DNA from: Lachnospiraceae bacterium
GTDB taxonomy: Bacteria > Bacillota > Clostridia > Lachnospirales > Lachnospiraceae
Direction of reading: 5' to 3'
NCBI GenBank assembly: GCA_024690265.1
Contig: JAILCW010000084.1
Location: 1 to 35,265, forward strand
DNA length: 35,265 nt
Shown: one piece after another, positions 8,007 to 30,966 of the stretch
Position numbering within the stretch: the first letter of the stretch is position 1
Layout: every line of letters begins with the position of its first letter
Position numbers and translations under genes: made by a program
The notes under the pieces: model-generated
What the model saw: only the letters and a program-made list of their open reading frames with translations
Database searches by the model: none
What the model was told of the DNA's origin: nothing

Positions 8007-8012
8007 ATAGTT

Positions 8013-8264
8013 AACCTGAAATGTTCGATATAGCCTGTAGTTTTTGAACCTACATTTACTTTAAACGGGATCCCAACATTATCTTTCTGATGTCAGGCCA
8101 AGGTAACAGCCTTTGCTGGAGAGCTTAAGCTCCGTTGGAGGACAGAAGACTGAATTGCGGTAACCCACCTAGCTGTTGCTAGGAGTCAAAAATGCAGGTC
8201 CGGCATTTTGGGCGGCGTGATGATTCGAGTCCTGTGTTACGATGATGCAGGACTCTTTTTTTTT
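8013..8264 (+). ncRNA. Structured non-coding RNA of about 250 nt (family not resolved; 6S- or raiA-type considered)
   Basis: This gene-free stretch has its own promoter and ends in a strong terminator, so a discrete transcript of about 250 nt is expected. Visible helices include GTAG/CTAC (8037-8053), ACAT/ATGT (8077-8095), GAGCTTAAGCTC (8121-8132), CCTAGC-TGTT-GCTAGG (8167-8182) and AAAATGC/GCATTTT (8189-8209). GGTAAC occurs twice. Short matches to 6S RNA ends (ATGTTCG near the 5' end, GGCGGC near the 3' end) are suggestive. However, I could not pair the two halves into the single rod expected of 6S, so a multi-helix RNA such as the raiA motif is an alternative. It could also act as a leader of the HD-GYP gene, because the terminator directly precedes that gene's ribosome binding site. 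I do not see c-di-GMP, SAM, TPP, lysine or cobalamin riboswitch signatures. Confidence 0.65.
8227..8264 (+). terminator. Terminator of the structured RNA
   Basis: An 8-bp perfect stem GAGTCCTG / CAGGACTC (8227-8234, 8248-8255) is followed by nine T residues. It lies 23 bp before the HD-GYP start codon, so it could also attenuate that gene. Confidence 0.9.
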
Positions 8265-9661: not shown

Positions 9662-9924
9662 CGAACAAAGACTGTGAATGCGCATAGTAGGTCTGTGAGA
9701 TCTTCCAAAGAGAGAGCGGGTGTCGTCGGCTGGAAGCACCGCAGGAAGCACAGAATGAATTTTCACGCAGGAGTCGCATAGCTGATGGAGGGAATCTCAG
9801 TAGGTTATGACGGGTAGCGCACGTTACGCGTACATGAGTGTCGAGAATAGATGATTCTCGGAATCAGGGTGGTAACGCGGATTTTTCATTCGTCCCTAAT
9901 ATAATTAGGGACGAATTTTTTTTG
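9662..9924 (+). promoter_or_regulatory. T-box riboswitch (tRNA-Phe-responsive leader of pheST)
   Basis: The leader contains the T-box signature AGGGTGGTAACGCGG (9866-9880), which pairs with the uncharged tRNA acceptor end to form the antiterminator, followed by an intrinsic terminator. A Phe codon TTC (9762-9764) followed by A lies in the stem I region ('GAATTTTCACGC') and is the likely specifier. By family knowledge, uncharged tRNA-Phe binding stops termination and raises expression of the synthetase genes. The exact stem I boundaries were not folded. Confidence 0.92.
9888..9923 (+). terminator. T-box regulated terminator
   Basis: A 13-bp stem (ATTCGTCCCTAAT 9888-9900 with ATTAGGGACGAAT 9904-9916) is followed by eight T residues. 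It is the terminator arm of the pheST T-box. Confidence 0.92.
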
Positions 9925-13409: not shown

Positions 13410-13424
13410 TTTGCTAACTTAGTG

Positions 13425-13579
13425 GCCCCACCCTTGCGGTGATGCCCGTTCTTTCCCGAGACACGCTCTCGCTCTGCCTCGCACGCAGCGGACACTAAGC
13501 AAGCGAAGCTTGCAAGTGCCGGCGGCTCAACAAGGTCTCTACGGAAAGAAGGACATCCACCTTGCGGGTGGGGATTTTT
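13425..13579. repeat. Long imperfect palindrome after pheT (palindrome family, member 1)
   Basis: The outer arms (about 13426-13462 and 13535-13573) pair from CCCCACCC/GGGTGGGG inward through TTCTTTCCC/GGAAAGAA to GAGAC/GTCTC, with small bulges. The centre is a perfect hairpin GCAAGC-GAA-GCTTGC flanked by CGGACACT / AGTGCCGG. ATTTTTA follows the right arm, so the structure probably also terminates pheST transcription. It is related to the element at 29791-30055 (shared CGCTCTCGCT and CCCG-GAGA segments, same centre design). No ORF is present in this 190-bp gap. Confidence 0.75.
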
Positions 13580-28537: not shown

Positions 28538-29752
28538 GTGCTTGAACTTAATAGAAATGAAGTAGATGCCGGAGCAAAAATCATTGTCATCGGAGTCGGC
28601 GGCGGTGGAAACAACGCCATCAACCGAATGATTGATGAGAACATCGGGGGCGTTGAGTTTATCGGCATCAACACAGATAAGCAGGCTTTGACTCTGTGCA
28701 AGGCACCGACCTTGTTACAGATTGGCGATAAATTGACCAAGGGACTTGGAGCTGGCGCTAAGCCAGAGATTGGTCAGAAAGCAGCGGAGGAAAACGCAGA
28801 GGATATCTCAGCAGCCATCAAGGGTGCTGACATGGTTTTCGTAACCTGTGGTATGGGTGGCGGAACCGGTACAGGTGCTGCACCTGTCGTAGCTCAGATT
28901 GCGAAGGAGCAGGGCATTCTTACTGTTGGTGTTGTAACCAAGCCTTTCAAGTTCGAAGCTAAGACACGTATGAACAATGCATTGGCTGGTATTGAGAACC
29001 TGAAGGAGTTCGTTGATACTCTGATTGTTATTCCAAATGATCGTCTGTTAGAATTAGTTGATCGCAGAACCTCTATCGAGGATAGCTTGAAGAAGGCTGA
29101 TGAAGTTCTTCAGCAGTCTGTTCAGGGTATTACTGATTTGATTAACGTTCCTGGATTGATTAACCTTGACTTTGCAGATATTCAGACCGTTATGCGTGAT
29201 AAGGGTATGGCTCATATCGGTATTGGTGCTGCTAAGGGTGATGATAAGGCTATGGAGGCTGTTCAGCAGGCAGTATCCTCTCCATTGTTGGAGACTACCA
29301 TCAATGGTGCAAGCGATGTTATTGTTAACATCTCTGGTGATATTTCCTTGATGGATGCCAACGAAGCAGTTGGATATGTTGAGAGTCTTGTTGGTGAGTC
29401 TTCTAACGTTATCTTCGGTGCGAAGTTTGATGAGAAGATGACGGATGAGGTTACCATCACTGTTATTGCTACCGGATTGGAAGAGACTTCTGTTGCTGGT
29501 GGTGTATTAGGCGGTATGCGTTATGCATCTACTCCTCGTGTAACACCTACTTTTAACGCAACTCGTCCTGTAGCACCTACTCCTCAGCAGGTTCGTCCTA
29601 CCGAGGTTAGCATCAATGTTCCTACACAGCCAGTTGGTTCTGCAGCAACCGCTCCTGCATTCGCCGGAATCCAGAAGCCACAGCAGCCAGCTAGCACAAT
29701 CAAGGAGCAGGACATCAAGATTCCTGATTTCTTGAAGAACACACATAAGTAA
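28538..29752 (+). CDS. ftsZ: Cell division GTPase FtsZ
   Basis: 404 residues. The annotated start has GAGGAGG upstream; the codon at 28538 is GTG. The tubulin GTP-binding signature '[11 protein letters not shown]' begins near residue 106, preceded by '[17 protein letters not shown]'. The T7 loop '[11 protein letters not shown]' is intact. A Pro/Thr/Gln-rich linker (about 320-385) leads to the conserved C-terminal tail '[10 protein letters not shown]', which binds membrane anchors and regulators. FtsZ polymerises into the Z-ring. ftsA, its usual anchor, is not adjacent. The gene ends 7 bp before a strong terminator that closes the dcw cluster. Confidence 0.99.
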
Positions 29753-29759
29753 TTATTAG

Positions 29760-29790
29760 GCCCCACGCGATTGCGTGGGGCTTATTTTTT
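29760..29790 (+). terminator. Terminator after ftsZ
   Basis: A 9-bp stem GCCCCACGC-GATT-GCGTGGGGC (29760-29781) is followed by TTATTTTTT. It is also the outer left part of the long palindrome that follows. Confidence 0.93.
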
Positions 29791-30055
29791 ATGAGGATAC
29801 TACCTGCTAGTGTTGCCTATTTAATTTTCATTGAGCTTGTGTGGATGTATATTTCCCGCGAGATCGCTCTCGCTGCCGCTACGGACGTAGCAGATACTAC
29901 AAAGCCTGCTTCGCAGCCTTTTAGTACTGACGTCCGCAGAGGCTCGCTACAGAAATACACATCTACACAAACTCTGGACTTTAGATTGATGATGGCAACA
30001 CTAGCGGGTAGTTTCGTATTAAAAGCACCGCGAATCGCGTGTGTACAATGTGTTT
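29791..30055. repeat. Giant imperfect palindrome after ftsZ (palindrome family, member 2)
   Basis: Paired arms seen from outside inward: CACGCGATTGCGTGGGGCTT (terminator) with AAGCACCGCGAATCGCGTG (30022-30041); 29800-29817 with 29994-30011 (17 of 18 complementary); 29833-29854 with 29953-29974 (19 of 22, the rest wobble-compatible); CGGACGT with ACGTCCG; centre AAAGCCTGC-TTC-GCAGCCTTT. The whole is close to 290 bp including the terminator. The 122-aa ORF in the track (29791-30159) merely reads through this structure and is not called. It shares CCCG.GAGA, CGCTCTCGCT and GCC segments with the element after pheT. Confidence 0.75.
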
Positions 30056-30085
30056 TTTTGAAATCAGGGAGACCTTTTGGTCCTT

Positions 30086-30114
30086 TTGCCTTTCAATTAC
30101 TACACAGTTATTAT
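30086..30114 (+). promoter_or_regulatory. Promoter before the alpha/beta hydrolase
   Basis: TTGCCT (30086-30091) and TATTAT (30109-30114) have a 17-bp spacer, about 49 bp before the start codon. Confidence 0.45.
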
Positions 30115-30162
30115 AAGATGGTAATTGTTAGACTTTTCTTTAGGGGAGAGCGGGTTTGAAGA

Positions 30163-30966
30163 ATGACAATGCATAAAAATGGATGTGTGAAGGTTGGCAA
30201 TACAGACATGTATTATGCGGCCTTCGGTGAAGGAAAAAAGAATCTGATTGTATTGCCGGGATTATCAGATGGTCTATGGACGGTGAAGGGGAAAGCATGG
30301 CTGTTGGCAGGCTCCTACAAGCCGTTTTTCGAGGATTACACGGTGTATATGTTCAGTCGAAAGAACGAGCTGCCGGAGGGTTATTCCATCGAGGATATGG
30401 CGGATGACCAAGCAGAAGCGTTGAAGAATCTTAGTATCGAGAAAACCATGGTTATGGGTGTATCGCAAGGTGGTATGATTGCGCAATACCTAGCTGCGAA
30501 GTATCCGGAGCTGGTGGAGAAGCTGATTCTTGTGGTAACGGCGCCCTACGCCAATGAGACGATTCGTTCTGTTGTTACCAAGTGGATTGAGATGACGAAA
30601 TCCGGTACCCACACAGAGCTTATGCTAGATACAGCAGAAAAGGTATATACGAAGAAGTTTCTTGAGAAGAATAAGCGATATCTTTCTTATGTTGCCGGAC
30701 TTACGAAACCGTCGAACTACGATAGATTCTGCAAGAATGCTCATGCGATTCTTGGTTTCGATGCAAGAGACGAGTTAAGTAAGATTCAATGTCCGACCTA
30801 TATCTTATCCGGTAATTGTGACAATACGGTAGGCAATGATGCTCCTTATGAATTACAGCAGGGCATCACGCAGAGCGAAGTCATGATATTCGATGGATTA
30901 GGGCACGGACTGTTTGAAGAAGATCGGGATTTCTATAAAAAAGTGTACGAGATTTGTGAACGCTGA
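30163..30966 (+). CDS. Alpha/beta hydrolase
   Basis: 267 residues. The fold is indicated by 'NLIVLPGLSDG' (oxyanion region), the nucleophile elbow 'GVSQGGM' (Ser101), 'PTYILSGNCDNTVGND' (acid residue) and 'GLGHGLFEED' (His). The triad is complete. No signal peptide is visible, so it is cytoplasmic. The substrate cannot be predicted; relatives include esterases and C-C bond hydrolases. The ribosome binding site is not ideal (AGGGGAG about 14 bp upstream), and the ATG at 30169 is an alternative. It is followed by the remains of a second hydrolase gene, suggesting a former pair. Confidence 0.9.
   Translation: MTMHKNGCVKVGNTDMYYAAFGEGKKNLIVLPGLSDGLWTVKGKAWLLAGSYKPFFEDYTVYMFSRKNELPEGYSIEDMADDQAEALKNLSIEKTMVMGVSQGGMIAQYLAAKYPELVEKLILVVTAPYANETIRSVVTKWIEMTKSGTHTELMLDTAEKVYTKKFLEKNKRYLSYVAGLTKPSNYDRFCKNAHAILGFDARDELSKIQCPTYILSGNCDNTVGNDAPYELQQGITQSEVMIFDGLGHGLFEEDRDFYKKVYEICER

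Follow-up and report, generated by a model that had tools for sequence, protein, structure and literature searches.

A palindrome downstream of ftsZ and a mobile repeat family of Lachnospiraceae with a conserved core and locus-specific complementary arms

A long palindrome follows ftsZ in the 35,265-nt stretch of Lachnospiraceae DNA analyzed here (the window), and it raises the question of what keeps two such arms complementary. The initial annotation offered three guesses, an RNA element, a non-autonomous mobile unit or a structure for nucleoid organization, and read the differences between the arms as a sign of selection for pairing at the RNA level.

The palindrome after ftsZ and its relatives in the genus

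The palindrome covers ~240 bp (29786-30025) on the 3' side of ftsZ. Both strands fold with a minimum free energy of -110 kcal/mol, compared with a shuffled mean of about -60 (z ~ -12), and none of 200 shuffles folds equally well. In the fold, the left outer arm (29786-29817) makes 28 bp with the right outer arm (29994-30025), a short middle arm (29821-29829) makes 9 bp with 29977-29989, and the left inner arm (29833-29855) makes 21 bp with the right inner arm (29952-29974). The center is a branched core with two hairpins, 29858-29873 and 29875-29943. The first contains a two-base-pair hairpin, GC-GAGA-GC (29866-29873), whose loop is of the GNRA type when read on the minus strand. The second, given on the plus strand, is a bulged helix with an apical hairpin and carries the conserved ACGTAGCRG ... 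CYGACGT. The family core as defined by covariance model R1 (117 positions) covers 29846-29961 on the plus strand with 117.5 bits (E = 5.7e-36); this core is one of the sequences from which R1 was built, so the score holds by construction, while the BLAST matches are independent.

The native intrinsic terminator of ftsZ (29757-29786, plus strand) is recognized by its sequence and by a homologous terminator after ftsZ in three congeners, where another gene follows and no element is present. The gene after ftsZ is an alpha/beta hydrolase here and a different gene in all three congeners (window 29752-30163 against L077-L079), which means that the DNA has been rearranged at the junction next to the element. 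No target duplication is found at the ftsZ copy. A weaker outer extension pairs 29763-29780 with 30025-30041 (10 of 5000 random windows score equally), so that the ~290-bp span proposed in the initial annotation is defensible. The first of these segments is an 18-nt half of the ftsZ terminator and the second a partial inverted copy of it. The G-U-compatible character ascribed to the arm differences does not hold up, as the 31-nt outer arm has five mismatches and only one of them is G.T; two are T.T, one is G.A and one is G.G. A coding explanation was rejected: the 122-aa ORF that overlaps the palindrome (29791-30159) has no Pfam match.

A second copy (13424-13573, plus strand; core 13445-13554) sits inside the loop of the pheT terminator. 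Its core scores 69.5 bits (E = 6e-20) with the covariance model, again by construction, since this copy is among the 29 model-building sequences; the conserved motifs are visible in the alignment. With these motifs in both copies, the suspected kinship of the two is confirmed. The pheT element is common to the window genome and congener G003 at an orthologous site, where comparison of G000 with G003 shows that the outer terminator arms are kept and the inner arms have changed with compensation. The ftsZ core has further matches elsewhere in its own genome (by BLAST) and in each of the three congeners examined. Throughout the genus the outer arms are locus-specific, yet complementary within each locus, and the consensus is TTTCCCGCGAG-RTC-GCTCTCGC ... 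ACGTAGCRG-[apical hairpin]-CYGACGT ... CTCGCTACAGAAA. At the C11 site, only fragments are left in two congeners. The family has multiple copies per genome, each with a ~115-bp conserved branched hairpin core and long, locus-specific complementary arms.

Individual copies show features of their own. L028 (1498-1670) and L063 (G000:C77:41949-42115) carry an extra ~50-bp GC-rich hairpin, GGTCGTTGCTAAGCGAACGTCCCCCGGACGTTCAGCAACG, in the core's small loop, which looks like the insertion of another palindrome at this point. Outside the window's genus, apical loops (L042-L055, L370-L391) are often GTNYTTT-like while the stem is variable, hinting at recognition of the loop.

Distribution, mobility and arrangement

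For the family-level search we used a covariance model built from 29 copies. The core is present in all four genomes examined of the window's genus, and at the level of the taxonomic family the model matches 56 of 150 genomes, with at least 24 copies in a genome among the matches scored. None of ~375 genomes of other Clostridia has the element. A broader model applied across the class matches 11 of 391 genomes, and all 11 belong to the same family. Titled contigs with the core pattern are from Lachnospiraceae or from MAGs with broad labels (Clostridia, Eubacteriaceae, uncultured bacterium); isolates with the pattern include Butyrivibrio hungatei DSM 14810, Oribacterium parvum and strain GAM79. 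Viral contigs, plasmids and phages give no match, and carriage by phage or plasmid was rejected on this ground. Rfam returns no relevant match to the element at gathering or permissive thresholds, only sub-threshold and mostly terminator-like ones, and among open-licence papers we found none on such a Lachnospiraceae family. Elsewhere in the window, 6S RNA (8010-8218) and a T-box leader (9665-9900) both exceed their Rfam gathering scores.

The family is mobile. At one site in Butyrivibrio genome G193 there is a clean 183-bp insertion, arms included. Its congener G346 is empty at this site, with flanks 92-96% identical, and its two sides join exactly between ...TTTAAACC and AAAAAG...; three further congeners are also without the insertion. 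The empty site has no hairpin, so the arms came with or after the insertion, and a donor for its arm is absent from every other copy examined. In genome G076, which belongs to a related genus, the core is the center of 216-218-bp elements with the terminal inverted repeat (TIR) GTAACAGTTCAGCC and 8-bp target duplications, for example GCGCCTTT, TTTATCCT and CCGTTGGA. This TIR occurs 114 times in G076, and it also bounds core-less derivatives. Three arm/TIR types within G076 carry a near-identical core; the second and third of them indicate that core and arms come in different combinations. Conserved TIRs are not seen in the window's genus or in Butyrivibrio. Insertion features thus differ by genus: the target-site duplications suggested as a check are present, at 8 bp, in G076 and absent from the clean Butyrivibrio insertion and from the ftsZ copy. 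Of the three original guesses, the non-autonomous mobile unit is the best supported, given the empty and occupied sites and the core inside palindromic MITEs. Loci L190, L192 and L197 of G076 hold an unrelated 165-bp two-hairpin element with the same ends GTAACAGTTCAGCC and 8-bp duplications.

Two candidate sources of transposase were rejected. IS66 transposase is absent from five of six genomes tested, including G076, with one fragment in G003. An autonomous version with its gene between paired copies was considered as well, and no transposase is recognized by eye in the interiors, which are short non-coding DNA or small genes.

Neighboring copies are arranged in a consistent way. All 24 pairs within 1.1 kb (25 pairs in all) are in the same inverted arrangement, none in the opposite one, and the broader-model search adds three more pairs of this kind. 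Gene direction was rejected as the cause, because gene strands are mixed, and the orientation of copies relative to neighboring genes is not fixed. In several copies the end is formed by a GC-rich stem and a T-run directly after a stop codon, and many copies have no T-run. T-runs lie on the plus-strand side in 35 of 125 cases and on the other side in 11 of 125, in line with service as terminators of upstream genes.

Pairing at the level of DNA or RNA

In an alignment of 66 family-wide sequences, which is fitted to the model and leans towards structure, 95% of cells pair, and both sides change in 35 of 37 pairs. Two-sided changes are seen in 695 cells, far more than have one-sided changes, and no shuffled or slid control is near the observed pairing (slid controls reach 35-44%). 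The covariation sought across copies is strong, so the family passes the refutation check set in the initial annotation, though the covariation is DNA-level in appearance. Watson-Crick combinations make up 2063 cells, G.T 28, A.C 40 and others 41. The share of G.U among folded pairs is 3.6-5.0% in the element, against 12.7% in 26 6S RNAs of related genomes (by single-sequence folds), 15% in the window's T-box and 14% in shuffled sequences, so that the tolerated G.U pairs expected of a structured functional RNA are depleted despite the covariation. Since G.U is rare and no commoner than A.C, the palindrome appears to be maintained at the DNA level and not through RNA pairing. This speaks against selection on RNA as the reason for the pairing, and the same counts do not support the selection that the initial annotation had deduced from G-U-compatible differences.

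The outer arms of 162 copies contain 196 G.U and 164 A.C, with no clear strand preference overall. Within the window's genus, where the copies are related and not independent, one strand (minus) has 126 G.U and 50 A.C. On the minus strand, ~156 of 162 copies have a GNRA-compatible loop in the two-base-pair hairpin, with the variants GAGA, GAAA, GCGA, GGGA, GGAA and GCAA, and the bulges and internal-loop bases of the core are strongly conserved. C-GNNA-G loops are stable in DNA too, which leaves the purine preference at the third loop position unexplained. Conservation of the core bases and the GNRA-type loop exceeds the need of simple arm copying and suggests protein recognition or an RNA role; the conserved GNRA-like loop leaves room for the latter.

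The GNRA fit, the conserved unpaired bases and the G.U excess on the minus strand within the genus are what favors a functional structured RNA, a 3'-UTR element or small RNA made from the minus strand, spread by transposition and kept for its RNA function. We regard this as unlikely. G.U pairs are rare for an RNA, the outer arms have no clear strand preference, the core is inverted at one orthologous site (see below), and copies are decayed in congeners and lacking from many Lachnospiraceae members. Furthermore, orientation to neighboring genes is not fixed, T-runs are commoner on the opposite strand, and the loop itself would also be stable as DNA.

Origin of the arms and relation to known repeats

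G193 and G346 share eight element sites, and at most of these the flanks are 91-97% identical. The arms are kept at five of these sites, replaced at two and intermediate at one (the arms of L434 were judged the same by eye). At the replaced sites, L371/L383 and L374/L381, arm identity is 0.58-0.69, near the shuffled level of 0.58, whereas the cores are 88% and 100% identical, and each pair of replaced arms is still self-complementary. Between G000:C40 and G003:C8:373654, the core is inverted relative to the homologous flanks. Template switching between inverted repeats has been documented to homogenize their arms and to invert the spacer (PMC8604942), and it is proposed to create and maintain hairpins (PMC8794818). 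Because homogenized arms and spacer inversion are its documented products, replication template switching is our preferred account and would explain both the arm replacement and the core inversion. A point against it is that wholesale replacement of both arms needs several template-switch events or recombination between copies. Template switching is a mutational process and not an element family, and published spacer inversions involve much shorter repeats; it predicts homogenized arms, two-sided changes without G.U intermediates, and core inversion.

The ftsZ palindrome is thus probably a copy of a non-autonomous, palindromic, mostly intergenic mobile DNA family that is confined to Lachnospiraceae and whose arms are maintained by template switching. 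The unit would move as DNA with the help of host or carrier transposases. After insertion, replication forks would switch template between the two arms and copy one onto the other, so that the two arms stay complementary even as they change in sequence; now and then this may flip the core. Covariation would then arise mainly from DNA replication and not from selection for pairing as RNA. Where a copy stands at a gene end, as at pheT, the arms could double as a transcription terminator.

Other histories of the arms have to be weighed. The element might write its own arms: the core would insert and the adjacent target would be copied in inverted form on the other side, giving a private palindrome that could be rewritten later. 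The ftsZ copy, with the partial inverted ftsZ terminator on its far side, would be an example, but we hold this scheme to be quite unlikely. Very unlikely is a core that acts as an independent element and inserts into pre-existing hairpins (terminators, MITEs), with the arms being target sequence. The pheT copy does sit in a terminator loop, the same core is found within different carriers, and the plain terminator of a congener at the C13 site, ACGCTCCATGCC-ACCA-GGCATGGAGCTT, corresponds to ACGCCCCTGGCC-element-CCAGGGGCTT in the window genome. However, the clean Butyrivibrio empty site has no hairpin, and orthologous copies whose cores are nearly identical have different arms. An assembly artefact or a palindrome arising by chance might be suspected because several copies are located at the ends of contigs and contig G000:C187 ends in a fold-back; the folding z of -12 and copies in isolates with gene flanks on both sides make such an origin almost certainly wrong.

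A REP/BIME-type repeat mobilized by a Y1 tyrosine transposase (RAYT) is highly improbable. In common with REPs, which are GTAG- or CGTC-tagged palindromes mainly downstream of genes (PMC3733652), the element lies downstream of genes, has GTAG- and CGTC-like motifs flanking its conserved helix and forms inverted dimers. However, its unit of 180-290 bp is far longer than 20-40 bp, its GTAG is partly paired, in place of the unpaired tag of REPs, and GTAG repeats are not reported from Firmicutes (PMC3733652). Only 5 of 15 element-rich genomes have Y1_Tnp (PF01797), which is absent from G000, G062, G076, G089, G113 and others; of the 10 negative genomes some are incomplete MAGs and several are 96-100% complete. 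Y1/RAYT is not required for the element and shows no association with it.

Closest among described systems are prokaryotic MITEs such as QMITE2, ERIC and Chunjie (reviewed in PMC10969869). The element is likewise short, palindromic, multi-copy, intergenic, non-coding (its ORF has no Pfam match) and mobile by empty and occupied sites, its transcript would fold as one long hairpin, and in G076 it has terminal inverted repeats and 8-bp duplications. The conserved part of MITEs is the terminal repeats, whereas outside G076 the element has a conserved center and locus-specific arms, and its core occurs in many genera, all of a single family, and in several unrelated carriers. Intrinsic terminators resemble the several copies with a GC-rich stem and T-run after a stop codon, but the element has a ~115-bp conserved insert in the loop and many copies without a T-run. 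Bcr1-type and stem-loop repeats are dispersed bacterial repeats with conserved secondary structure whose whole sequence is conserved; by this description they are set apart from the element, in which only the core is. The family, so far unnamed, is a variant of palindromic MITE/REP-like repeats with a conserved center and variable complementary arms.

Covariation is usually taken to prove a functional RNA. In this family it is accompanied by a scarcity of G.U intermediates, by inversion of the core and by paired replacement of the arms between close relatives. The family is thus a caution for RNA discovery from covariation and a testing ground for replication template switching, a replicated natural experiment on the old question of how long stems stay paired as they change in sequence. 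The repeats also form a large family that has gone unannotated; about one third of the genomes sampled from a major family of gut bacteria have it, and it sits in terminators and may break assemblies. At G000:C187:8537-8692, the contig end is a near-perfect ~120-bp fold-back around the element, a possible assembly artefact at palindromes.
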